Shown piece after piece: positions 1,833 to 21,645 of a stretch of DNA of 54,080 nt. A model generated the notes under the pieces. It saw only the letters and a program-made list of their open reading frames with translations. It made no database searches and was not told where the DNA came from. The translations under genes were made by a program, and so were the position numbers. Location of the stretch: assembly GCA_944323365.1 (NCBI GenBank), contig CALUSG010000050.1, forward strand, positions 1 through 54,080, read 5' to 3'. Numbering within the stretch: the stretch's first letter is position 1; each line of letters begins with the position of its first letter. Source of the stretch: Candidatus Gastranaerophilales bacterium (GTDB lineage Bacteria > Cyanobacteriota > Vampirovibrionia > Gastranaerophilales > Gastranaerophilaceae).

Positions 1833-2788
1833 AATTCAAGAATTTCTATATTAAATATTTTTACAACTTTTCGTTTATTTAATAATTTTTTATATGTTAA
1901 AATTTCAATTAAATTTGGTATTCCTTGCCTTTTAGTAAGGATTCCTTGTTCTGCAATTTTATTAATTTCTTCAGGCAAAGAATTTTTACAATTATTTAAT
2001 ACTTTATTTTCTTCAATTCTAGTATTTTTTGATAATAAATTTATCTTTTCTGACTTTTGGATAGTATTATTCTGATGCCATCTATAAGAATATAAAATTT
2101 TATCTATATATTTAAATTTTGTAATTTTAGATAATTGTAGCATTAAAAACCAATCTTCTAATATATTGCTCGATGGATTCTTTGTAATTTTATTAAAAAG
2201 TTCTTTTCTTATTAAATATCCATTTGGAATATAATTTTTATTATATAAACTTTTATATGTTCCAAAATTTTTATCGTCAAAATCATTGGGATTTTGTATC
2301 TTTAAATATTCTGCAAAAGTCTTATATTTTCCTTCTGTTGCTTTATACGTAATTGCTCGTGAATCATCTTTCCAATAACAAATACGACCGTTGAAATCTA
2401 TTATTTCACTATCACCAACCGCTAATCCAAAATCCGGATTATTCTCCAAAAATTCAACTTCAGTTTTAATAGCTTCAGGTTTTGCTAAATCATCTGAGCC
2501 TATTAAATATACATACTTACCACGGGCAAGCGAAATTAGTTTATTTACTGTTAATGCACACCCGATATTCTCTTGTGTTTTAAAAATGTAGTTCGAAAAT
2601 CTTTTTTTACTTTCATCTTCTATTTCACAAATTTTATTATATGTATTATCAGTAGATCCGTCATCTATTATAACTAATTCTATATTTTTATATGTTTGGT
2701 TAATAATTGATAATATTGTATTTTGTATATATTCTTCGTGATTGTAAGCAGATATTAAAACTGATACTAAAGGATCTTTAGTATGCAT
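1823..2788 (-). CDS. Glycosyltransferase family 2
   Basis: A 321-residue GT-A fold glycosyltransferase. The N-terminal [19 protein letters not shown] stretch is followed by the nucleotide-sugar motif IDDGS (residues 41-45) and a later GSDD (the DxD equivalent). No membrane segment is seen, so it probably acts on the inner face of the cytoplasmic membrane on a lipid-linked intermediate. A GGAGGT Shine-Dalgarno sits five bases before ATG 2788. Its start overlaps the aminotransferase gene by 11 bp, so the two are probably coupled. It closely resembles the GT2 half of the fusion protein at 4863-6488 (shared FGTY...YIPNGYLIR and DDW/EDW segments), which suggests local duplication. Donor and acceptor are unknown. 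Confidence 0.9.
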
Positions 2789-3863
2789 TTATGACCTCCG
2801 TAATGTTTCTAACTTCTTCATCTGTCAAAACCGGGGAAATTGGAATACTTATGATAGTTTTATGTATTATCTCGCTAATTGGATACGACAGATGTGACCA
2901 TTCTTTGTATGCACCTTGTTGATGCGGAGGCGTAGGATAATGAATGTTTGTTTGAATATTATGTTTTTCTAAATAATTTTGAAAATCATCACGATTATTT
3001 GTTCTAACTGCAAAAATATGCCATACATGTGAATCTTCATTATAGGTCTGCGGTAAAATGATTTTTTCGTTTTTTATATTATCCCTATAATATTTAGCAA
3101 TTTGTTGTCGTCTTTTATTATCTAGGTCTAAATATTTTAATTTTATATCTAGTATGGCAGCTTGTATTTCATCGAGCCTTGAGTTTACACCTTTATATAT
3201 ATGGTGGTATTTCCTGTCAGAACCGTAATTGGCTATAGCTTTAATTTTTTCGTATAAAATTTCATCGTTTGTGGTTACAGCTCCACCATCGCCCATACAA
3301 CCTAAATTTTTGCCGGGGTAAAAAGAAAAACCGGAGGCATCACCTAAATTTCCTACCCTTTTCCCTTTATAATATGCACCATGTGCTTGTGCAGAATCTT
3401 CTATAATTTTTAGGTTATATTTTTTAGCTATTTCCCAAATTTCTTGCATTTTAACGGCTTGACCATATAAGTGGACAACCATTATTGCTTTTGTTCTACT
3501 CGTAATTTTTTCTTCTATTAATTTAGGATTAATATTATAAGTATTGATATCCGGTTCTATTAGTACGGGAGTACAACCATTTTCAGAGATTGCTAATATT
3601 GATGCTATATAGGTATTCGCAGGAACTATTATTTCATCACCAGGCCCAAATCCATAGCCTTTTATTATTAAGTTTAATGCATCTAGTCCATTTGCAACTC
3701 CTACACAGTATTTTGTGCCGCAAAAATTTGCAAAATTGCGATTAAAGGTTTCGTTTTCTTCACCTTGCAAATACCATCCGTTGTCTAAAATTTTTTGTAT
3801 TCTCTGATCTATTTCTGCTCTAAATCTGTTGTTAATTTTTCCTAAGTCTAGAAATTTTATCAA
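2778..3863 (-). CDS. fdtB: DegT/DnrJ/EryC1 sugar aminotransferase, FdtB/QdtB-like
   Basis: A 361-residue PLP-dependent aminotransferase acting on nucleotide-linked keto-sugars. The PLP lysine is K185 in [11 protein letters not shown], and the cofactor-contacting segment [10 protein letters not shown] is at 153-162. The opening FLDLGKIN, the GWYLQGEE segment and the [11 protein letters not shown] segment match the branch that aminates dTDP-3-keto-6-deoxyhexoses (FdtB/QdtB). That reaction needs the 3,4-ketoisomerase FdtA/QdtA, which is present at 17059-17478, so the pathway is split between two operons. The start is TTG 3863, chosen because AGGAGG stands five bases upstream. The TTG overlaps the TGA that ends the restored sulfotransferase frame. 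The symbol is tentative because FdtB and QdtB cannot be told apart here. Confidence 0.85.
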
Positions 3864-4866
3864 TTTGTCCTCCTATATAAATATTTATTGTATTTAGCTG
3901 TAATTTTTTCTATTATTTCATCATCTTGATGCTTTAGATAAAGTCCTATATTCTTTTCTGATTGACTTGGATTAAAATATTTTAGTTTATTTGTATGTTG
4001 TATTTTATCTATATTGCAAAATTTAATTATTTCTTCTGAAATTTTTTCATATTCATATACAAAGTCCTCAAAACGTAAATTATAAATCCTATTATCGGAA
4101 ACCGGGGGGGGTAGATATAAAATATTTCCTCAAAGAAAGAATCAATTTCTTTGAATGATTTTACAGGGATAAACAGGCCTTCCGAATATTTATTCTTAAA
4201 ATCTACATAAACATCTCTTGGATCTCTTATGCAAGTTATTACTTTAGCATCATAAAAATAATCTAGTCCAAGAGGTAACTGTGCGGATTGAAGAGCGTTT
4301 ACTAGACATATGTTTGGTTTATCAGTTAATGCTGTCAATATATTCTCTATGTATTCTTTAACAAGACTATTAAATTTTTCTTTGGTAAAATATTTTACTA
4401 TATATGTAAAGTCAGAATTTAATTTAAATTCATTTTTATTATTTCGAAAAATTTTATTAAATAGGTTGTTATCTTGTGATAATTTATGTATGTAAGCTCG
4501 TAATTGAATATTTTCATCATTTTCGTGCCAATTGAATACGTTTTCATTTGTTTTATATTTTAAGACAATTAGTTTATCTAAAAATTTTTCGGTTATTTTT
4601 ACTAGTTTGTTATTTGGAAATAATTCTTTATAAAAAGTTCGGTTATAAAATTTGACAAGGTTCAAATAACGTTTAATAGCATAATCTGCGGTAAAGAGAT
4701 TGTTATTATATATTAAAGTTACAGCTAAAGAATTAAGCCCGTTTGCGTATTTTATTAAATCAAATTCAGGCATCATTACATAGAAATTTTTAAATTCTCT
4801 AAAAAAATCTCTAACACATGAATTTCCACTTTGTCCATATCCAGCAGCAATTATAACTTTTTTCAT
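3860..4866 (-). CDS. Sulfotransferase family protein, frame broken at a C8 tract
   Basis: As written, the frame from ATG 4866 stops at 4027 after 279 codons. The first part is sulfotransferase-like: a PAPS-binding P-loop ([16 protein letters not shown]) at the N-terminus and the 3'-phosphate motif [14 protein letters not shown] near residue 215. After the C8 tract at 4111-4104 the written frame becomes meaningless. Adding one C gives a continuous 335-residue protein ending at 3860, with the expected family C-terminus ([20 protein letters not shown] and [11 protein letters not shown]). The restored stop overlaps the next gene's start (TTGA), as in the rest of the operon. Its predicted role is sulfation of the surface glycan. 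The frame may be phase-variable, decayed, or miscalled in sequencing. Confidence 0.8.
4104..4111. repeat. Homopolymer G8 (C8 in the coding strand)
   Basis: Eight consecutive G lie inside the sulfotransferase coding region and coincide exactly with the switch of reading frame. Nine (or six) bases would restore the frame. A run of this length is far above expectation at this base composition. Confidence 0.9.
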
Positions 4867-6488
4867 TTCCCCTTCTTCTTTAAATTTATTTTTATACCCA
4901 AAAATTTTATTTGTAGTTTTTTTATAGAATTAATTCTTTTCTTTTTTATTGTTATGAGTGGTGGTAAATTTATTACTGTTTTTTCATAATTATCGCATAA
5001 CAATTTTTCGATATAAGTTTTTACGTCGGGCAATAATTGGTTTTTATCGATAGTTTTAATTATCTCATTCTCATAATTACGAGTTTTTAAAGTCATTTCT
5101 TCTATTTTATGAGTATTTATCATTGTATTTGTTGTATGTTGACGGTATTCTAATAATATTTTATTTATAAATTTCATTTTAGAATATTTGGAAATTTGGA
5201 GTAATATATACCAATCATCCAACGGTGCTTTTTTTGTATAATATCCTGTTTTTTTAAATATATTGCGTCGAATTAAATATCCATTTGGCACATAATTATA
5301 TTTATAAAATTCTTCATAAGTTCCAAATTTACTACTACTAAAATCCAGGTTTACTTTATTTTGATAAAATTCTGCAAATGTTTTAAAAGAATCAGGTAAA
5401 TTTGTATATTTACCATTTTTATCCCAAAAAATCCTATTACCGTTTTCGTTAATTAGTTCGTTGTCACCTACAGCTAATGCATAATCAAGATTTTGTGACA
5501 AAAATTCGTACAAAGTTTCTATGGCTTCAGGTTTATATTTATCATCTGATGCAAGTAAGCTGATATATTTCCCTGATGATGTAATGATAAGCTCATTTAG
5601 TGTATCACATATACCTTTATTTTTACGTGTTTTAAATATTACATTTGCTAACTTTTGTCTACATTCTTCTTCCAATTCACATATTTTATCCCAAGTATTA
5701 TCTGTAGAACCGTCATCAATTATAATTAATTCAATTGGTTCATATGTTTGATTTAATACAGATCTAATTGAATCTTGTATATATTTTTCATGGTTGTATG
5801 CTGGTATTAAAATTGAAATTAGTTCTTTTTCTTTCTTATCTTTTAACAAATCTGATAATTTATAATCACTTAATATAGCTTTTAGTTTTGCATAATTAGG
5901 TGTATATGGAGGTAATGATTTATCTGAATTTGTATAATCTGTTTCTATTTTTAAAATGTTTTGACTTAATTGTATATTTTTATGCTTATTTTTATTACTT
6001 ATGTATAAAATATCAATTTGTGTATTTTTAAATTTTGTTTGAAGTTTTTCTTGTAATGACAAAAGAATTTTATTATTATTTAATTTTTCTTTGCAATTTG
6101 GCGTTTCAATATATACAAATAAAACTTTTTCAGATTGAGTAATTTCAGAGTACATACGATTAATTCTACGTTTATACTGAGCAGCAACGGAAGGATAAGA
6201 TTCTTCAAGGCCTGCATTTAATGGAAAATCATGGTTAAATACAATATTGTTTTTGATGTTTTTATAAATAGTACACGGCATAGGTTGAAGTCTCGTTCCT
6301 TCTTTTTCTAAATCATTAAGATTAATAAAATTTTTCATATCGTTTAGCAAAAGGTTAATGCGACCTTCAAAATTATTGCCAAATAACCAATCAAATGGAT
6401 ATGAAAATCTTTGGAGCCCACAAGCTCTGAGAGTTTCTGTACAAGAACAGGCTTCTCCTATACTTATTATTAAATCATATGTCTTCAT
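4863..6488 (-). CDS. DUF1796 (papain-like) domain fused to a family 2 glycosyltransferase
   Basis: About 541 residues from ATG 6488. A GTG nine bases earlier is also in frame, but AGGTG is correctly spaced for the ATG. Residues 1 to about 215 look like DUF1796, a putative papain-like cysteine peptidase family: ISIGEACSCTETLRACGL with its Cys, SYPFDWLFG, and NHDF with a candidate His. From about residue 225 a complete GT2 domain follows ([34 protein letters not shown]). The GT2 half is a close relative of the GT2 at 1823-2788. It overlaps the sulfotransferase start by ATGA. The DUF1796 domain may be enzymatic or may bind the acceptor; its function is not established. Confidence 0.8.
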   Translation of the reverse strand: MKTYDLIISIGEACSCTETLRACGLQRFSYPFDWLFGNNFEGRINLLLNDMKNFINLNDLEKEGTRLQPMPCTIYKNIKNNIVFNHDFPLNAGLEESYPSVAAQYKRRINRMYSEITQSEKVLFVYIETPNCKEKLNNNKILLSLQEKLQTKFKNTQIDILYISNKNKHKNIQLSQNILKIETDYTNSDKSLPPYTPNYAKLKAILSDYKLSDLLKDKKEKELISILIPAYNHEKYIQDSIRSVLNQTYEPIELIIIDDGSTDNTWDKICELEEECRQKLANVIFKTRKNKGICDTLNELIITSSGKYISLLASDDKYKPEAIETLYEFLSQNLDYALAVGDNELINENGNRIFWDKNGKYTNLPDSFKTFAEFYQNKVNLDFSSSKFGTYEEFYKYNYVPNGYLIRRNIFKKTGYYTKKAPLDDWYILLQISKYSKMKFINKILLEYRQHTTNTMINTHKIEEMTLKTRNYENEIIKTIDKNQLLPDVKTYIEKLLCDNYEKTVINLPPLITIKKKRINSIKKLQIKFLGIKINLKKKGK

Positions 6489-7713
6489 TTTTTTCACCTA
6501 GTGTTTTACAAAATATACCTAATTCACAACCTTTTATAAGCTTTTTAGATGTAATACGGAAGATACTTTTAGGTTTCTTTTTGTTTTCTGCCTTGTGATA
6601 AATATTATTATAAAATATCTTACTCCATTTCAAAAGTTCATTTGTATTATCAATCTTTAAAAGTTCATCTTTAGATAAGTCATGGATATTTTTTATTATT
6701 TCTAAATATTTATAACCATTTCTCGTGTCAGGTTCTAAATAGCAGCTTTCTCCCCATTCATTCCAGGCAACAATAAATACAAATCTTTTATCCGCTGGTT
6801 TATTATATGCTTTTTTAGATATTTCTTCTAAAAAAATTCTAAAATTTTCAGGAGAAAAATTCGATTGAATTATCGGGTTCCGTTTTTTTCTTCTTGGCGA
6901 ATTATCAAAGCCTAAGTTGACACCTTGAAAATACAAATATTTATTGTCATCTCTCAATATAGATTGTATTGCTTTTGATCTATAATCTAAATTAGTTACT
7001 TTATGATTTTCAAATAATTTTATTTGTTTTTCTTTTGGTATCGCATCAGTCTTACTCCAGGACGGAGTAAATTCATATGATGCATCACAATCATATTTAT
7101 TAGGATTTATTTTAGAATCATTATTTTCAAAAGCTACAATAAAAAGTTCAATATTATATTTTTCTTTTGCATATTTTCGCATTAAGCTTATATTTGGAAT
7201 ATTTTTAACATCATATATAAGTAGTAAATGTTTATTATCGATTTTTATATATCTCGGATCATTAAAATATTTTATTGTATCATCTATATATTGAATAAAC
7301 CAATTTTTAGGATATTTGCAAGCTAGTAAAATTTCTTTGCTTTTAGCTTCCCAGGTTCGTGTCCAGTCGTGGTTAGCCCAGCATAAACAAAATGGAATAT
7401 CTACTTCAGGAGTTTTTAACATATTTTCTAAAGGTTTATATAATGTTTTTTTACCATCGAACCAGTAATAATAGTAGCAAAAACCATATAAACCATATTC
7501 TTTTGCTAAATTTGCTTGTTTAATCATTACATTTACATCAGTTAAATCGTAATAACCATCTTGAGGAATGTTAGGCTGATTATGACCTTCAAATAAAGGA
7601 ACTGCTGATTTTACATTGGTCCATTCAGTAAAACCTTTCCCCCACCATTTATTGTTTTCTTCTGTTTCATGAAATTGTGGTAAATAGAATGCTAAGTATT
7701 TTATTTTTTCCAT
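6475..7713 (-). CDS. WbsX-type glycosyltransferase (GH99-like)
   Basis: A 412-residue protein of the WbsX family, found in O-antigen and capsule clusters and related to GH99-type TIM barrels. Family landmarks seen are YLAFYLPQFHETEENN at the start, WWGKGFTEWTNV, GYYDLTDVNVM, FCYYYYWF, CWANHDWTRTWE, and VAWNEWGESCYLEPD near the C-terminus. AAGGAG stands at good distance before ATG 7713, whose gene overlaps the HAD gene by 13 bp. The exact linkage made is unknown. Confidence 0.85.
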   Translation of the reverse strand: MEKIKYLAFYLPQFHETEENNKWWGKGFTEWTNVKSAVPLFEGHNQPNIPQDGYYDLTDVNVMIKQANLAKEYGLYGFCYYYYWFDGKKTLYKPLENMLKTPEVDIPFCLCWANHDWTRTWEAKSKEILLACKYPKNWFIQYIDDTIKYFNDPRYIKIDNKHLLLIYDVKNIPNISLMRKYAKEKYNIELFIVAFENNDSKINPNKYDCDASYEFTPSWSKTDAIPKEKQIKLFENHKVTNLDYRSKAIQSILRDDNKYLYFQGVNLGFDNSPRRKKRNPIIQSNFSPENFRIFLEEISKKAYNKPADKRFVFIVAWNEWGESCYLEPDTRNGYKYLEIIKNIHDLSKDELLKIDNTNELLKWSKIFYNNIYHKAENKKKPKSIFRITSKKLIKGCELGIFCKTLGEKNEDI

Positions 7714-13153: not shown

Positions 13154-13786
13154 CTAAAATTTATTCATATAATAGTTTGCCGGGTATGTCATTGCAAGTT
13201 CTTTATTAACGCTTACGACTTCTTCATTCAAATCTTTATTTTTGTAATTTTGATCAATTACAGGTAAATTATCCGCTTGTTCTTGGGTTTTGATTACTTC
13301 TCCGGCAGGAACATATCTTCCTGACGCAACTTTTACACCGATAACCCTTGCGGTTGGTTCAATTACAACATTATCGCCTACTTCGGATTTATAAACAAAC
13401 GATTGCATACCGACAAATACGTTATTGCCTATTTTGGCCGGACCATGAATTTGAGCTTGGTGGGCGAGGCTTGTATTATCTCCAATAAATACAGAATATT
13501 CCATATTATTATTTTTTACTCTTCCGTCTTTTAAGCCGTGAATTACAACACCATCTTGAACATTAGTACCTTGACCAATAAATATCGGTGTCCCTTCATC
13601 ACCACGGATTGAAGCAAATGGTGCAACATTTACATTAGGCCCTATGGTTACATTTCCTATTATGCTGGCTTGAGGATGAATTGCTGACCCCGGGGCAATG
13701 TTTGGAATAAAACTTTGTGGTGTAAATGTTGTAACTGGGTTTGTCATTATATTTTTTGGATATATTCTTGGTAATACTGGCTGCAT
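13154..13786 (-). CDS. Gamma-class carbonic anhydrase (Cam/CcmM-like hexapeptide protein)
   Basis: About 210 residues from ATG 13786, chosen because AGGAGG lies five bases upstream; an ATG at 13843 overlapping rfbA has no such site. The middle is a left-handed beta-helix of hexapeptide repeats (IIGNVTIGPNVNVAPFASIR). The three zinc histidines of gamma carbonic anhydrases lie in VVIHGL, SLAHQAQIHGP (two). The segment TNVQDGVVIHGL is close to archaeal Cam and the CcmM N-terminal domain rather than to general hexapeptide acyltransferases. CcmM's Rubisco-like repeats are absent. It follows rfbA by 46 bp, so it is probably in the rml operon. Reaction: CO2/bicarbonate interconversion. Confidence 0.8.
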   Translation of the reverse strand: MQPVLPRIYPKNIMTNPVTTFTPQSFIPNIAPGSAIHPQASIIGNVTIGPNVNVAPFASIRGDEGTPIFIGQGTNVQDGVVIHGLKDGRVKNNNMEYSVFIGDNTSLAHQAQIHGPAKIGNNVFVGMQSFVYKSEVGDNVVIEPTARVIGVKVASGRYVPAGEVIKTQEQADNLPVIDQNYKNKDLNEEVVSVNKELAMTYPANYYMNKF

Positions 13787-13832
13787 AAGATCCTCCTGAT
13801 TAAAAAAAACATCTAAATATTTTTTTTTGCTA

Positions 13833-14708
13833 TTAAGATTCAATAATTTTATTTATGTAGTTATAATACTCATTATTTTTATATTTTTCAGTTTGTTTTT
13901 TTAATTCATCTTTTGTAACAAAGCCCATTCTGTATGCAACTTCTTCAAGACATGCTATTTTTATACCTTGATTTTCCTCAATAGTTTGTATATATTGGCT
14001 TGCTCTTAAAAGTGATGCGTGAGTTCCAGTGTCAAGCCAAGCAAAGCCTCGACCTAATAGTTCAACCGTTAGGTTACCGTTGTTTAAATATATTTTGTTA
14101 AGATCAGTTATTTCAAGTTCTCCTCTAGCTGATGGTTTTAGGTTTTTAGCATAATTAATAACATTATTATCATAAAAATAAAGTCCTGTTACAGCATAAT
14201 ATGATTTTGGATGTTCAGGTTTTTCTTCAATAGAAACAGCTTTGCCGTCTTTATCAAATTCAACCACTCCAAACCTTTGAGGATCTTTTACAGGATAGCC
14301 GAATACTGTCGCACCGCCATTTTGTTCAATTTTTTTTACGGTATTTTTTAAAGTTCCTGAAAATCCGGGACCGTAAAATATATTATCACCTAAAATTAAG
14401 GCTGCACAATCATTTCCTATAAATTCTTCTCCTAAAATAAAGGCTTGAGCCAGTCCATCGGGGCTAGGTTGTTCTTTGTATGAAAATTTAATACCAAATT
14501 GAGAGCCATTGCCCAAAAGTTTTTTAAAATTAGGTAGGTCATGAGGAGTTGAAATGATTAATATATCTTTAATACCTGCAAGCATTAAAACAGAAATAGG
14601 GTGATAAACCATTGGCTTATCATAAACCGGCAATAGTTGCTTTGAAACAGTCATTGTGCTTGGCCATAATCTTGTTCCGCTTCCGCCTGCTAAAATAATT
14701 CCTTTCAT
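13833..14708 (-). CDS. rfbA: Glucose-1-phosphate thymidylyltransferase (RmlA)
   Basis: A 291-residue enzyme that makes dTDP-glucose from dTTP and glucose-1-phosphate, the first step to dTDP-rhamnose and other dTDP-sugars. The signature [15 protein letters not shown] is at the N-terminus. The catalytic region includes [27 protein letters not shown] and [11 protein letters not shown]. Length is normal for RmlA. The start ATG 14708 shares one base with the rfbD stop. Intact. Confidence 0.97.
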
Positions 14709-15535
14709 TATACGGTCTCCTCTATTCTTAGTTGTAAATAGTCATTTAATGCGGCTTCCCAATTTCTGCAGATTTTATCGTTGTCCATGACACTATAGTG
14801 AGGTCTTTTCGCCGGCCTTGGAAATTCATCTGTTGTACATGAAATTAAGTTTACTTTTATATTGCTTTGTCTGAATATTTCTTTTGCAAATCCATACCAG
14901 CTAGTACTTCCTGAACCGCAAATATGGTATGTCCCGTAGGGTTTTTGCAGAAGCTTTAAAATTCCGTTTGCAAGTTCAACTGTCCATGTAGGACAGCCTA
15001 TTTGGTCATCAACAACTTTTAACTCGGGTTTGTCCTTTAGTGAAAGCATTGTTTCTACAAAGTTTTTGCCGTGTATGCCATACAACCAGCTTGTTCTTGC
15101 AATATAATATTTAGAACAGTATTTTTTTACCATTTCTTCGCCTTGCAATTTAGTCAATCCGTAATTGTTAATAGGATTTGGCTTGTCATCAGGCTTATAT
15201 GGAGTTTTATTTGTTCCGTCAAATACATAGTCTGTTGAAATATATACAAGCGGAATATCAAGGCTTCCGCAGACTTTTGCAATATTTTCCACACCTGTAA
15301 CATTTATTTTTGTGGCAGTTTCTAGATCTTCTTCAGCTTTATCAACATTTGTATAGGCTGCACAATGTATCACCAAATCAGGATGAGAAGATGTTATTAC
15401 AGACTTTGTTGATTCTGAATTCGTTATATCCATAGTGTCAATATCTGTTTCAATTACAAAACATCCTGCATCTTCCAAAATAGGACATAAATCTTGTCCA
15501 AGCATTCCGTTTGCACCTGTTACTAAAACTTTCAT
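14708..15535 (-). CDS. rfbD: dTDP-4-dehydrorhamnose reductase (RmlD)
   Basis: A 275-residue SDR that carries out the last step to dTDP-L-rhamnose. It shows [13 protein letters not shown] (NADPH site), [18 protein letters not shown] (the characteristic RmlD stretch), and [12 protein letters not shown] with the catalytic YxxxK. It lies between rfbA and rfbB with single-base overlaps. Intact and of usual length. Confidence 0.97.
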
Positions 15536-16515
15536 TATACAATGCTCGCTTTCTTTTCTTCAATTTGTTGCATCCAGTCTTGATTATGAAGGTACCAGTC
15601 TATAGTAAGTTTAATACCTTCTTCAAATGTTAATGATGGCTTCCAACCAAGTTCAGACTGAATTTTATCATTGCATATTGCGTAACGCCTGTCGTGGCCT
15701 AATCTGTCTTCTACATATTTTATTGAACTTTCGTCCTTGCCCATTGCATCAAGGATTAGATGAGTAATTTCAAGATTAGTTTTTTCGTTATGGCCTCCGA
15801 TGTTGTAAACTTCGCCTATTCGACCTTTATGTAAGACAACATCTATAGCTTCACAATGGTCATAAACATATAACCAATCTCTAACATTCAAACCATCGCC
15901 ATAAACAGGTACTTTTTCACCTTTTAGAAGTTGTGAAATGAAAAAAGGAATTAATTTTTCAGGGTACTGGTATGGTCCGTAGTTGTTTGAACAGCGTGTG
16001 TTTAATACGGGCATTTTATATGTTTCATAATACGCACGAACAAGCATATCCGCACTTGCTTTTGAAGCTGAATAAGGGCTGTTTGGAGCAAGAGGAGTTG
16101 TTTCTGTAAAATAACCTGTTTTGCCAAGGGTTCCGTAAACTTCGTCTGTTGAAACCTGTAAAAATCTTTCTACACCTAATTCTTTAGACGCTTGTAATAA
16201 ATTTAGAGTTCCTTGAACATTTGTTTCAATAAAAATTTCAGGTCCTGTAATTGATCTGTCAACATGTGATTCTGCAGCAAAATTTATTACACAATCACAT
16301 TCTGAAATGAGATCTCGTACAAGCAGTTTGTCACAAATATTTCCGTGTACAAATGTGTAATTCGGGTTATTTTTTACATCATTAAGATTTTCAATGTTGC
16401 CGGCATAGGTTAATGCATCTAAATTAATTATTTTGTAATCAGGATGTTTTGTTAAAATATGCCTTACAAAGCAGCTTCCTATAAATCCGGCACCGCCGGT
16501 TACCAGTAATCTCAT
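15535..16515 (-). CDS. rfbB: dTDP-glucose 4,6-dehydratase (RmlB)
   Basis: A 326-residue extended SDR that forms dTDP-4-keto-6-deoxyglucose, the branch point for rhamnose and for the FdtA/FdtB amino-sugar route. LVTGGAGFIGSCFVRH is the NAD site, FAAESHVDRSI is an RmlB hallmark, and STDEVYG with YSASKASAD gives the catalytic residues. NTRCSNNYGPYQYPEKLIP is also typical. Intact. Confidence 0.97.
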   Translation of the reverse strand: MRLLVTGGAGFIGSCFVRHILTKHPDYKIINLDALTYAGNIENLNDVKNNPNYTFVHGNICDKLLVRDLISECDCVINFAAESHVDRSITGPEIFIETNVQGTLNLLQASKELGVERFLQVSTDEVYGTLGKTGYFTETTPLAPNSPYSASKASADMLVRAYYETYKMPVLNTRCSNNYGPYQYPEKLIPFFISQLLKGEKVPVYGDGLNVRDWLYVYDHCEAIDVVLHKGRIGEVYNIGGHNEKTNLEITHLILDAMGKDESSIKYVEDRLGHDRRYAICNDKIQSELGWKPSLTFEEGIKLTIDWYLHNQDWMQQIEEKKASIV

Positions 16516-17069
16516 TCCAGTTCTCCTTTATTTATCTCGTTAAGTTTAGGTTGTATTTTATCTTTATCGCTTAAAATAGGATCAAAGTCAATTCCCCAGT
16601 TAATATTTATGTCTTTATCGTTCCACAAAATACCTCTATCTGCTTTGGGATTATATTCTCCGCTTGCTTTATATAAAAGTTCAGCCTCATCAGATAACAC
16701 TACAAAGCCATGAGCAAATCCTTCAGGAATGAAAAGCATATGTTTATTGTCTTCCGATAATTCAACTTTAACATATTGTCCAAAGGTTTCGGAGTTAGGC
16801 CTTATATCAACAGCTACATCATAAATCCTGCCTCTGCTGCAACGTACAAGTTTTGCTTGTCCGAAAGGTTTTGCTTGGTAGTGTAAGCCTCTTAACACAT
16901 GTGCGGAGGATTTCGAGTGGTTGTCTTGATTAAAATCTACGTTTATTCCGTTTGCAGCAAAGTCCGATTTCTTGTAGCTTTCCATAAAAAATCCACGGTT
17001 ATCGCCAAAAACTTTCGGCTTTACTAGTATTACATCTTTTATTCTTTGTGGTTCAAATTCAAATGGCAT
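16512..17069 (-). CDS. rfbC: dTDP-4-dehydrorhamnose 3,5-epimerase (RmlC)
   Basis: A 185-residue cupin that epimerises C3 and C5 before reduction by RmlD. It shows DNRGFFMESYKK, the substrate segment FNQDNHSKSSAHVLRGLHYQ with the catalytic His, LVRCSRGRIYDVAVDIR, and IPEGFAHGFVVLSD. Joined to rfbB by an ATGA overlap and to fdtA by 11 bp. Intact. Confidence 0.97.
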   Translation of the reverse strand: MPFEFEPQRIKDVILVKPKVFGDNRGFFMESYKKSDFAANGINVDFNQDNHSKSSAHVLRGLHYQAKPFGQAKLVRCSRGRIYDVAVDIRPNSETFGQYVKVELSEDNKHMLFIPEGFAHGFVVLSDEAELLYKASGEYNPKADRGILWNDKDININWGIDFDPILSDKDKIQPKLNEINKGELE

Positions 17070-17478
17070 TAGACTTCTCCTGATTTTTTAAACTTTTAAG
17101 AAATTCATCATAATTTCTGATATATTCTTTTTCATCATAAAATTCATTTGCTAGAACCATTAATTTACAACCATAGGAAAAATGCCTCATTTCTCGCCAC
17201 ATATTTTTGCCTATGTATAATCCTACATCAGGTCGGTTAAGCCATAGTTCTTCTCTTGTTTTACCGTCATCAAGAACAAATTGACAAGACCCGTCTATTG
17301 CTATAATAATTTGCTCTAAGTTTTTATGTGCATGTTTTCCTCTTTCAAAATCAGGAATTGTATCATAAATATAGTAAACTCTTTTTATTGCAAAAGGAAT
17401 ATTTTTATTGTTCTCTAATGAAATTAGCTTGCCTCTTTCATCGCCGAACACTTTCATATTAATTAATTTATAGTTCAA
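17059..17478 (-). CDS. fdtA: dTDP-4-keto-6-deoxyglucose 3,4-ketoisomerase (FdtA/QdtA-like)
   Basis: A 139-residue single cupin of the WxcM-like family. FGDERGKLISLE, RVYYIYDT and RGKHAHKNLEQIIIAIDG (paired His in HAH) are the FdtA/QdtA signature, and IGKNMWREMRHFS is in the expected place. The enzyme moves the keto group of RmlB's product from C4 to C3, which an FdtB/QdtB aminotransferase then aminates. That partner is at 2778-3863, not adjacent. Whether the product is the galacto (Fuc3N) or gluco (Qui3N) form cannot be decided here. Confidence 0.85.
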   Translation of the reverse strand: MNYKLINMKVFGDERGKLISLENNKNIPFAIKRVYYIYDTIPDFERGKHAHKNLEQIIIAIDGSCQFVLDDGKTREELWLNRPDVGLYIGKNMWREMRHFSYGCKLMVLANEFYDEKEYIRNYDEFLKSLKNQEKSNAI

Positions 17479-18475
17479 GTTCCCTCCTTTTTTGTTTTAT
17501 AAATAATTTGCGTTTAATTATGTTATAAGATGGAATTTTGTGATATTCTTGCCAACTCTCAAAGTCTAAATATTTTAAAATAAAATATTCGTCCTTATGA
17601 TGAAAAAGAAATTTTATATCATCATCAATACTGTTGATAAAATTTTTAAAGTTATTAAAAGCTATTTCTGCAGGTAATTCTGCCCTGTGATTTTTGTAAA
17701 AATGACGGTGCTGACAAATTCCCCAGTAATAAACTGGCCATTTTTTGGTTTCCCACATATCTGATTTAATTAAAAATTCTTTGACAGTATTCCATGCTTT
17801 CATATATGTTTTATAGTGTATAGCCCATTGTTTTTCTTTGTGAGAAACGGAATTTTGTCGTACTCTGTAATAATAAACATTTAAATTTGTTTCAATCGGT
17901 TGTTTTGCATTACAACTAATTTGCCAGGATAGACAACTATCTTGATAGTCACACATTTTTTCAGGGAAAATTACATTTTTGTATAATGACTTTTTGAAAA
18001 ATTTATATGGCATCATATAATTATTAAATTTTTTATGCGTTAGAGTTTTGTATTTATAGACTTTTATTCTGCGTTTTTTATATTGTTTGGTATCATCAAT
18101 AAATTCAGTAATTTTTTTGCAATAAACAAGATCATAATTTTTATTCCGTACAAATTTTATTAATTTTTCAATAGCTTTTAAATTAAGCCAGTCGTCATTA
18201 TCTAACAGGTAAATCCATTCCCCTTGAGCTTCTTTAACAGCTTTTTCATAAGCTTTTGCAATCCCGCTGTTTTCCTGAGAAAATACTTTAACTCTGTTAT
18301 CATTTGCTTTATACTTGTTAAGTATATCCAAAGAATTGTCCGTTGAACCGTCATTTACGCAAATTACTTCAATATTTTTATATGTTTGGTTTATACAACT
18401 GTCCAAACACTGTTCAAGATATTTTTCAGCGTTATATACCGGTATAAGGATTGAAACTAATGGGTTTGTTGTCAT
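17468..18475 (-). CDS. Glycosyltransferase family 2
   Basis: A 335-residue GT2 with VSILIPVYNAEKYLEQCLDS at the start, VICVNDGSTDNS for the nucleotide, and YLLDNDDWL as the DxD region near residue 95. The basic C-terminus (KRKLFIKQKRREL) may touch the membrane. It is placed between the CDP-ribitol synthase and fdtA genes with short spacing. Sugar specificity is unknown. Confidence 0.9.
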   Translation of the reverse strand: MTTNPLVSILIPVYNAEKYLEQCLDSCINQTYKNIEVICVNDGSTDNSLDILNKYKANDNRVKVFSQENSGIAKAYEKAVKEAQGEWIYLLDNDDWLNLKAIEKLIKFVRNKNYDLVYCKKITEFIDDTKQYKKRRIKVYKYKTLTHKKFNNYMMPYKFFKKSLYKNVIFPEKMCDYQDSCLSWQISCNAKQPIETNLNVYYYRVRQNSVSHKEKQWAIHYKTYMKAWNTVKEFLIKSDMWETKKWPVYYWGICQHRHFYKNHRAELPAEIAFNNFKNFINSIDDDIKFLFHHKDEYFILKYLDFESWQEYHKIPSYNIIKRKLFIKQKRRELEL

Positions 18476-18476
18476 A

Positions 18477-19817
18477 CTATCTCCGTTTTACATCGATTAC
18501 CTGTCCTGTATAATCAGAAAGCAATGTATTTAAACATGCTTCAGCGACGGTTTCGGCTTTTAAAAGTGTATCTTCAGGTTCTTTGCCAAAATTTTCAAGC
18601 CTCATTGGAGTAGCTGTTCTTTCAGGATTGATTACGTTTATATTTATATGTTCATTTTCCCATTCTTCAGCAAGTGCTTGGGTAAGATTTACTATTGCTG
18701 CTTTAGTTGATGAATATATTGAGTATAATGCTCGGCCTCTTGTATATGAACTTGAGGTAAAGAAAATAAGACTTCCCTTGTTTAAATATTTTGGGGCTAA
18801 TTGTGCTATATTTACACATCCCATATAATTAATTTTTACTTCTTCTATTATATCATCAATTTCACGACAGTTAAGTTTTCCCATCCTTAACAATCCTGCT
18901 GTATTTACTATATAGTCAATTTTATTTTCTTTTGAATAAACTTCGTCAAGAGCTTTTTGTATTTGTTTAAATTCTGTTACATCCACTCCGGTTTTTCTTG
19001 AAAAACCATAAATTTTTGCACCGTAATCTTTTGCCATTTCTGAAATAGCTTTACCAATACCCTTGCTTGCACCAAATATTACTAAAACTTTGTCTTTCAA
19101 TTTTGATAAATCATTTTTTGGAGCATTGATACTATTTAATTGAAATAATTTGTCAGCTATTGCTACATCAATCGGATAAGTTATTTTTCTGTTAAAATCA
19201 TCGCCGTTAATAACATAAACATCTGCAAGCTTAAGTTTTACAATTAAACCGCAATCATCAGTGACGGTTATATTGTTATTATTTGCAAGTTCGTGTGCTT
19301 TCCTGATTAGCTGCAACTCAAAGGCTTGAGGAGTTTGACCGCGTTTTAGATATTTCCGTTCGGGAATCTCTTCAATTATATTTTTGTTATCCACTTTTAC
19401 AATTGTATCAGCAGAGTTTATTGCAACATCTACAGCTTTATAACTATCAAGTGCGGATATACATTCGTCAATTATTTTTGATTGTAAAAATGGTCTTACT
19501 GCATCATGTATTAAAACTTTACCATTTTCTTCTTCTATTGAAGATACACCGATATATGAACTTTCTCGTCTTGTCTTTCCGCCAGCTAGAATCTTTTTTA
19601 CTTTTTTGAAGTCGTTTCGTTTTATTATATCCTCTGTTAAAGATATGTAATCAGGGTTTGAAACAATTATTATTTCATCTATACCCGTGTGTTTGTCAAA
19701 AGTGTTTATTGTGTGCTCTAATACAGTTTTCCCTGCAATTTTTACAAATTGTTTTGGTATATCAAGACCGGTTCTTTCACCTTTCCCTGAGGCTAATATT
19801 ATTGCATATGTTTTCAT
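18477..19817 (-). CDS. Bifunctional CDP-ribitol synthase (IspD-like cytidylyltransferase + SDR), Bcs1/Acs1-like
   Basis: A 446-residue two-domain protein. Residues 1 to about 225 form an IspD-type cytidylyltransferase: GKGERTGLDIPKQF (10-23), HDAVRP (104-109), QTPQAF (161-166), TVTDDCG. Residues about 240-446 form an SDR with GASKGIG (249-255) and catalytic YSSTKAA. This order is that of Haemophilus Bcs1/Acs1, in which the SDR reduces ribulose-5-phosphate and the other domain makes CDP-ribitol. A plain IspD of the MEP pathway has no SDR. The next upstream gene is LicD, sharing ATGA, which suggests that CDP-ribitol is used by that transferase. Confidence 0.8.
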   Translation of the reverse strand: MKTYAIILASGKGERTGLDIPKQFVKIAGKTVLEHTINTFDKHTGIDEIIIVSNPDYISLTEDIIKRNDFKKVKKILAGGKTRRESSYIGVSSIEEENGKVLIHDAVRPFLQSKIIDECISALDSYKAVDVAINSADTIVKVDNKNIIEEIPERKYLKRGQTPQAFELQLIRKAHELANNNNITVTDDCGLIVKLKLADVYVINGDDFNRKITYPIDVAIADKLFQLNSINAPKNDLSKLKDKVLVIFGASKGIGKAISEMAKDYGAKIYGFSRKTGVDVTEFKQIQKALDEVYSKENKIDYIVNTAGLLRMGKLNCREIDDIIEEVKINYMGCVNIAQLAPKYLNKGSLIFFTSSSYTRGRALYSIYSSTKAAIVNLTQALAEEWENEHININVINPERTATPMRLENFGKEPEDTLLKAETVAEACLNTLLSDYTGQVIDVKRR

Positions 19818-20755
19818 TTTAAAACCTCTTTATACGTTTCTATAAATTTTTCGATATTTGCTATAGTTGAAGGTGTTATTCTTTTTTGTATATCCTTATG
19901 CAATTTTGTCATTGATGGCGGAAATTTCATATAATCACCATAATTTTCAAATAATACTGTTGAAATTTTATTCGGGGCAAAATATTTTTTGCCTTCAAAT
20001 TCTATTCTTTGTAAAGGAAATATCCAATCTCTTTTATAATAGCTCAAGTGCCAAACTTTGGTTTCTATAGCTCTAAACATACTTGCATTTTTATCAGGCA
20101 TATTATTTTCCATTACTATTTCATCACGAAGTTTTTTAATTTCTTCATATGAATTTTTTACCCCAAAATTTGGTATTCCTGTTCGTTTCTTATAATATTT
20201 AATATATTTTTTTGCTTTTCCTATTTTTTTAAACAGTTCTTTTTCTTCTTTTTCTGTTTCAATATTTTTGTAATAATAGTCTAATGGGAAAATGTCAAGT
20301 TGGATTGGTGTATTTTTATAATAAATTCGAAGACAGTCTGTTATAGAATACTCAAATCTTTGTCCTTTAAATAGGTTATCAATAATGGCTATTAATTTTT
20401 CATAATCATCACGCAACATGCATATATCTAAATCATCATCCCAGGGGATAAATCCTTTGTGTCTTACTGCTCCAAGTAAAGTTCCGTAATTTATCCAATA
20501 TGTTAAATTGTTTTGTTCGCAAAGTTTTGTAATTATATGTAAAAGAATAGCATCCGCTTCCTGTATAAGCCTTAAAATCCCTGCGGCTTTCGGTACTTTT
20601 GTTATATCAGTAGTTAATCTTTGAAAAGCCTGTATTTGTTTTAATTCAAAAATTACAGAATTTAGCGGAAATTTTATACCTGAAATTTGTATAAATTTTT
20701 GCCCTCTTTTATCATTTTGTACACTAAATAAAAATTTGATTATTTTTCTTATCAT
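19814..20755 (-). CDS. LicD/FKRP-family phospho-transferase
   Basis: A 313-residue protein with the LicD core at residues 87-120: YWINYGTLLGAVRHKGFIPW followed by DDDLDI, the nucleotidyltransferase-fold motif with metal-binding Asp residues. Family members move phosphocholine (LicD) or ribitol-phosphate (animal fukutin/FKRP) from a CDP donor to a sugar. Here it is translationally coupled to a CDP-ribitol synthase, so ribitol-phosphate is the best guess for the group transferred. No signal peptide or membrane segment is evident. It is the first gene of the right sugar operon. Confidence 0.85.
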   Translation of the reverse strand: MIRKIIKFLFSVQNDKRGQKFIQISGIKFPLNSVIFELKQIQAFQRLTTDITKVPKAAGILRLIQEADAILLHIITKLCEQNNLTYWINYGTLLGAVRHKGFIPWDDDLDICMLRDDYEKLIAIIDNLFKGQRFEYSITDCLRIYYKNTPIQLDIFPLDYYYKNIETEKEEKELFKKIGKAKKYIKYYKKRTGIPNFGVKNSYEEIKKLRDEIVMENNMPDKNASMFRAIETKVWHLSYYKRDWIFPLQRIEFEGKKYFAPNKISTVLFENYGDYMKFPPSMTKLHKDIQKRITPSTIANIEKFIETYKEVLK

Positions 20756-20843: not shown

Positions 20844-21512
20844 TTAAACTAAACCCTCTTTTAATGCTTTAACAGCGGCCTGGGTTCTATCATCTACTAC
20901 TAATTTTTGGATAATATTGCAAACATGTGCTTTTGCGGTATGTTCTGAAATTGTAAGTTCTTGTGCAATTTCGTTGTTTGATTTACCGTCAACAATAAGT
21001 TTTAGTACTTCATATTCTCGTTGAGTAAGATTTGCATGTTGTTCTTTAAACATGGCCCGTGACATTTGTCTAGGCGGAATTACACCACAGTTTTTTTCTC
21101 TTAAAATTGGTACAACTTGCGGATCAAGCCACATTGCACCTTCTTTAACTGTTTTGATAATCATTTTTAATACTTCTATATTAATGTCTTTTAAAACATA
21201 AGCACATGCTCCGGCTTCTAATGCAGCAATTACCTCATCTTCACTTATATGGGAGGTTAAGATAATTACTTTTGCATTATTGTTTATTTCAAGAATTTTT
21301 TTTGTAGCTTCTATCCCTGAAATATCAGGTAGGCCTATATCCATTAAAACTATATCAGGATGTGTAATTTTATATTTTTCGACTGCCTCTTTGCCGCTTT
21401 GGGCTTCTGAAGTTACTTCTAGTTCGCTTAGCTCTTCAAATAAAGATTTAAGACCTACGCGCATTAATTTATGATCCTCTACTAATAATATTTTTATAGG
21501 CGGGTTATTCAT
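20844..21512 (-). CDS. NarL/FixJ-type response regulator
   Basis: About 222 residues. The start is ATG 21512, because AGAGGAGG lies just upstream; the in-frame start at 21557 has none. The receiver domain shows ILLVEDHKLMRVGLKSL (acidic pocket), phospho-acceptor Asp in DIVLMDIGLPD, and Thr/Lys in ILTSH and YVLKD. The C-terminal LuxR helix-turn-helix reads LTQREYEVLKLIVDGKSNNEIAQELTIS as two adjacent pieces. No histidine kinase gene is in the window, so it is an orphan locally. It is read toward the sugar operon but separated by 88 bp with a separate promoter. It could control that operon or the divergent pilin gene, but no evidence decides. Confidence 0.92.
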   Translation of the reverse strand: MNNPPIKILLVEDHKLMRVGLKSLFEELSELEVTSEAQSGKEAVEKYKITHPDIVLMDIGLPDISGIEATKKILEINNNAKVIILTSHISEDEVIAALEAGACAYVLKDINIEVLKMIIKTVKEGAMWLDPQVVPILREKNCGVIPPRQMSRAMFKEQHANLTQREYEVLKLIVDGKSNNEIAQELTISEHTAKAHVCNIIQKLVVDDRTQAAVKALKEGLV

Positions 21513-21645
21513 AATTTTCCTCCTCTTTATATATGTTATATGACTTCTAAAGCTCACATTTAACCCCTGATTTCCAAAATCAAAAGACTATATTCTGTTT
21601 TTATATTTATGAAACATTATTTGGATTAAAATGGAATTTAATTTG

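Follow-up and report, generated by a model that had tools for sequence, protein, structure and literature searches.

The locus analysed here raises the question of whether an enzyme predicted to make CDP-ribitol for a surface glycan can also be the IspD of isoprenoid synthesis. The window, that is, the whole stretch of 54,080 nucleotides under analysis, comes from a 1.70 Mb MAG of a gut bacterium (G000; 97% complete, 87 contigs), and relatives with named records belong to Candidatus Gastranaerophilales (Melainabacteria). An earlier note had read two adjacent genes of this window as a CDP-ribitol synthase, built as an IspD-SDR fusion, and a LicD-type ribitol-phosphate transferase. It overlooked the more interesting point: the fusion is the only IspD of the genome.

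A predicted CDP-ribitol synthase and its LicD neighbour

Both open reading frames lie on the minus strand and were found exactly where the earlier note had placed them, at 18477-20755. The shared ATGA that it described is a 4-base overlap at 19814-19817, formed by the stop codon of the LicD gene (19814..20755, 313 aa) and the start codon of the fusion (18477..19817, 446 aa; ORF and Pfam evidence). The IspD cytidylyltransferase domain spans residues 1-226 of the fusion (19140..19817; Pfam IspD in a profile search at residues 5-224, E 1.1e-52) and carries the ribitol-type residues D130 and G160 discussed below. The SDR domain, a predicted D-ribulose-5-phosphate reductase, takes up about residues 239-446 (18480..19103), with Pfam adh_short/adh_short_C2 matching residues 252-412. 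A cytidylyltransferase at the N-terminus and an SDR at the C-terminus of a single chain is the Bcs1/Acs1 order, in agreement with the earlier description. In Haemophilus influenzae capsule loci, Bcs1/Acs1 is a bifunctional CDP-ribitol synthase; the present fusion, likened to it by description and not by sequence, has the same architecture and also lies in a polysaccharide locus, and differs in having a LicD partner and a genome without separate IspD.

The residues GxxxGIG (249-255), NTAG (305-308), SSS (355-357), Y368 and K372 are intact in the SDR part, as are G11, R15, K22, D105, R108, T162 and K211 in the IspD part. All of them are invariant among 12 aligned fusions except part of NTAG and the second glycine-motif positions, so that the loss of SDR catalytic residues, which the earlier note had named as a finding that would count against its reading, did not occur. 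The fusion passes both the IspD equivalog-domain model TIGR00453 (200.4, cut-off 181.3) and NF001183, the model of D-ribitol-5-phosphate cytidylyltransferase (175.6 bits, cut-off 166); with the latter model, housekeeping IspD from the genus reaches 118.9, under the cut-off. The closest PDB sequence to the IspD domain is TarI of Bacillus subtilis (4jis, E 2e-38), and human ISPD (4cvh) is the top Foldseek match to the AF2 model, with both domains covered. By domain order, SDR residues and cytidylyltransferase subfamily, the fusion is a member of the Bcs1/Acs1-type bifunctional CDP-ribitol synthases, with the activity predicted.

The LicD protein matches PF04991 over residues 79-273 (E 1.2e-34, 120.9 bits versus a cut-off of 22.6) and keeps the DDDxD motif at 106-110 (GTLLGAVRHKGFIPWDDDLD); a genome-wide search found this single LicD gene. 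In the structural comparison that the earlier note had suggested, its AF2 model was best matched by FKRP (6kal; Z 15.3 over 168 residues, next fold 9.9), a likeness at the level of fold from which the substrate does not follow. Human ISPD (CRPPA) with fukutin/FKRP is likewise a CDP-ribitol maker paired with a LicD-fold transferase, and its members are the top structural matches of the fusion and of LicD; here the pair is bacterial, the SDR active site is intact, and the host, unlike mammals, uses the MEP pathway. Choline kinase (LicA), whose absence the earlier note would take as support for ribitol, is missing, with no match to its family PF01633 at E 0.1 anywhere in the genome. PF04464, the TarL-like CDP-glycerol/ribitol transferase family, was also not found in a genome search. 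Since choline kinase and PF04464 are both absent and LicD is single, this LicD is the obvious candidate for the ribitol-phosphate transferase.

Recurrent pairing and the ribitol reading

An alignment-based scan of the genome collection gave 588 relatives; the single fusion protein as a query gave no match in the same collection. All seven fusion-bearing genus members examined have a LicD domain immediately upstream of the fusion, a pairing that is kept despite differing surroundings. In four of these genomes the upstream LicD is a GT8-LicD fusion protein. In Bacteroidota, LicD is found within 1 kb of the fusion at about 10 of 17 loci. In other members of the class, fusions are often adjacent to PF04464 proteins, the classical ribitol/glycerol-phosphate transferases, and at one locus PF04464 stands between LicD and the fusion. 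Across 383 genomes the co-occurrence of LicD with the fusion is 17/25 versus 103/358 (p 1e-4). LicD genes are present also in fusion-less genomes, therefore the LicD family is not uniformly CDP-ribitol-using.

These data bear on what LicD would transfer. Addition of phosphocholine or another CDP-activated group, with the adjacency to the fusion incidental, could draw on the sole NCBIfam match of LicD, cholinephosphotransferase Mf1, which is far under its cut-off (70 versus 225). We hold this to be very improbable, given the missing choline kinase and an adjacency that is so constant in the genus and recurs in another phylum. Somewhat less improbable, though still doubtful, is a donor that is another CDP-pentitol, such as CDP-arabinitol or CDP-xylitol, whose pentitol phosphate LicD would transfer. 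GT8-LicD genes beside a different IspD-family gene in two genomes (G012 and G356), followed in G012 by an RmlB-like dehydrogenase, suggest that the donor may differ between LicD partners; against this, the IspD domain of the window is closest to TarI and passes the ribitol-phosphate cytidylyltransferase model, and fusions adjoin PF04464. The recurrent pairing, the PF04464 neighbours elsewhere, the lack of choline kinase and FKRP as the best LicD match support the CDP-ribitol reading of the earlier note; ribitol as the donor, as against another pentitol, and the acceptor glycan are predictions.

Under the ribitol reading, the SDR domain would reduce D-ribulose-5-phosphate to D-ribitol-5-phosphate, the IspD domain would couple this product to CTP to give CDP-ribitol, and LicD would pass ribitol-phosphate to a rhamnose-containing surface glycan made by the same cluster, as its gene families and context suggest. 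Neither the association of IspD with LicD nor ribitol-phosphate transfer by LicD is new in kind, both having been proposed before. Bacterial IspD-LicD fusions have been mentioned (PMC4873967); in the parts of the sources consulted, LicD homologues accompany a TarI homologue in the enterococcal EPA rhamnopolysaccharide locus (PMC7188991), and a role with ribitol in the teichoic acid of streptococci is proposed for LicD3 (PMC4649388). As here, LicD is proposed in those parts as a CDP-ribitol-using ribitol-phosphate transferase, in the EPA case beside a rhamnose polysaccharide; the same parts differ from the present locus in that TarI is a separate protein and loss of ispD is not described.

Several other arrangements were seen among the relatives. 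The GT8-LicD proteins upstream of the fusion (about 613 aa; L036 6213-8054, L037 8756-10603, L040 2594-4435, L041 8652-10493) are predicted to carry both a glycosyltransferase and a polyol-phosphate transferase activity on a single polypeptide. The loci where GT8-LicD adjoins the different IspD-family gene are L107 3010-7892 (G012) and L121 3667-8608 (G356). That of G012 has PF04464 along with the RmlB-like dehydrogenase, and the same flanking genes of 117, 174 and 368 aa, as if the CDP-polyol module had been exchanged as a cassette. In order-level relatives (G050, G055 and G056; L042-L044) the fusion adjoins a protein of about 604-696 aa in place of LicD; in G055 and G056 this protein shows MptE-like/Maf glycosyltransferase domains. 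In G009, an internal TGA interrupts the SDR part of the fusion gene (L059 1260-2597), a possible decay of the reductase, and housekeeping ispD is also kept in this genome.

The surrounding glycan cluster

On the minus strand, 1 bp downstream of the fusion, lies a GT2 glycosyltransferase (17468..18475; PF00535, E 1.2e-40), a candidate acceptor-building enzyme. It is followed on the same strand by an FdtA-like (WxcM C-terminal) dTDP-4-keto-6-deoxyglucose 3,4-isomerase (17059..17478; PF05523, E 2e-52) and by the dTDP-L-rhamnose genes rmlC, rmlB, rmlD and rmlA (13833..17069), which all score over the cut-offs of TIGR01221, TIGR01181, TIGR01214 and TIGR01207. Farther along the cluster are a DegT aminotransferase, a TPP enzyme, a WbsX glycosyltransferase and additional GT2 enzymes. 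On its other side the locus is flanked by a LuxR-type response regulator (20844..21557, minus strand; Pfam Response_reg and GerE), 94% identical to its counterpart in G007, a member of the same genus, and marking synteny with that genome. Contamination of the contig was rejected, as gene order and sequence match G007.

The FdtA-like isomerase and the distant DegT aminotransferase (2778-3863, minus strand) suggest that the same glycan contains a 3-amino-3,6-dideoxyhexose. At 13154-13843 (minus strand) a hexapeptide protein resembles carbonic anhydrase/CcmM, with neither match (E 9e-75 and 6.5e-57) reaching its cut-off; the host is a non-photosynthetic relative of cyanobacteria. At 4863-6497 (minus strand) a GT2 domain is fused to DUF1796, a putative papain-like cysteine peptidase domain.

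Loss of housekeeping ispD

Genome-wide search identified the fusion as the only full IspD of G000. A second match to PF01128, in a 438-aa frame of C25, spans just the first 65 positions of the profile and was taken for a GlmU-like protein, because nearly every relative has such a match. DXR and IspF are present, and a genome search for HMG-CoA reductase gave nothing above cut-off. With other MEP genes in place, no second IspD and the mevalonate route absent, the genome needs an IspD for the MEP pathway, a need judged from DXR and IspF for the MEP genes and from HMG-CoA reductase for the mevalonate route. A divergent IspD may have gone undetected, since the MAG is fragmented.

The native site of the lost gene can be recognised. 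Housekeeping ispD stands between thiL and the convergent gene x392 in three members of the genus (G010, G004 and G013), and in five others (G000, G002, G011, G014 and G007) thiL and x392 are contiguous and ispD is gone. An assembly gap was rejected as the reason on account of this contiguity in five genomes. All five have a fusion-type IspD. Within the genus, ispD is absent in 5/8 carriers of fusion-type IspD versus 0/8 non-carriers (p 0.013). Among the 383 genomes, a second IspD is lacking in 17 of 42 carriers, and 11 of 341 non-carriers have none at all (p 1.6e-11, in a class-wide test that treats genomes as independent, which relatives are not, and is uncorrected for phylogeny). The grouping of fusions with a second IspD is partly inferred: housekeeping ispD was directly seen only in G004, G009, G010 and G050, the second IspD of the others may be of another type, and in G055 and G056 no second IspD was found.

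Ribitol-type residues and SDR-less forms

The fusion has the fold and catalytic residues of B. subtilis IspD (5ddt), and the same reaction is expected of it; it differs from housekeeping IspD in having D at 130 and G at 160, as TarI does. In the chain, G160 comes two positions ahead of T162, which belongs to the QTPQ segment. Both residues occur in 46/46 fusions and 3/3 TarI proteins and in 0/29 housekeeping IspD proteins. In the SDR-less forms (n = 10), G160 is changed in all ten (to C, A, S or I) and D130 in nine. That the fusion of the window has both ribitol-type residues yet is the only IspD points to a dual-substrate enzyme. Comparison of alignments revealed no residue that distinguishes fusions of ispD-less genomes from other fusions. 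The sequences thus give no sign that the enzyme has adapted to MEP, which is a weakness of this reading.

An SDR-less form stands at the syntenic locus of G007, where the order is NadC-NadB-response regulator-IspD-rmlC-rmlB-rmlD-rmlA. There SDR and LicD are absent, and the IspD, of 227 aa and 66% identical to the IspD domain of the fusion, is the sole IspD of the genome. In genus g46, too, several genomes (most of those sampled) have a lone fusion-type IspD as their only IspD, with IspF kept. In trees the lone forms fall in two places among the fusions. Loss of the SDR is the simpler reading of them, because the fusions as a single clade are rejected (p-AU 2e-5) and fusions from several phyla surround the lone forms, in trees whose deep branches are weakly supported.

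Replacement of IspD as the proposed explanation

Since the normal ispD is cleanly gone, the ribitol enzyme seems to have taken over the isoprenoid step. We propose that the locus makes and uses CDP-ribitol and that the IspD domain of the fusion has replaced housekeeping IspD, with a probability of just under 0.6 for the two together, activities and acceptor being predicted. The domain would convert MEP to CDP-ME, and one cytidylyltransferase site would serve both ribitol decoration and isoprenoid synthesis. The observed base is the gene structure, the intact motifs, the conserved pairing, the disappearance of ispD from between its intact native neighbours, the presence of DXR and IspF and the retention of a lone IspD domain where SDR and LicD are absent.

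The fusion could instead be a plain CDP-ribitol synthase, the MEP step being done by an unrecognised enzyme or isoprenoids being obtained otherwise. This would fit D130 and G160 in all fusions and the lack of MEP-specific change in fusion-only genomes, and CDP-methylerythritol was not seen for mammalian ISPD (PMC4873967). It is nevertheless unlikely, given that DXR and IspF are retained, that most losses of ispD are in genomes with a fusion-type IspD, and that G007 and the majority of the g46 genomes sampled keep a lone IspD domain as their only IspD. The opposite extreme, a fusion that is now an MEP enzyme only, with the SDR a relic or in another role, agrees with the TIGR00453 score and with the existence of SDR-less relatives; we give it little credence, as the SDR active site is intact, D130 and G160 are kept, unlike in the SDR-less forms, and the start codon overlaps the LicD stop.

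For the group as a whole, it is rather probable that a CDP-ribitol synthase of variable glycan loci has displaced housekeeping IspD several times in Gastranaerophilales, one site doing both jobs, and that where the glycan function was lost the SDR was shed and the ribitol-type residues disappeared. In the openly readable literature we found no precedent for replacement of IspD by a CDP-ribitol synthase or for CDP-ribitol tied to the MEP pathway. A survey of 4,400 species describes IspD as evolutionarily rigid, kept by essentially all users of the MEP pathway (PMC10663253). It accepted any IspD alignment under an E-value cut-off, so it could not see such a replacement.

Implications

The ribitol part of this locus is ordinary; what merits testing is the replacement of housekeeping IspD. 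If true, a capsule-type enzyme travelling with surface-glycan loci can take over an essential step that is a drug target, and isoprenoid synthesis would be tied to a decoration pathway. The replacement would also offer a natural experiment, with D130 and G160 as candidate residues for specificity towards ribitol-5-phosphate versus MEP, a contrast relevant to the differences between TarI, human ISPD and IspD.
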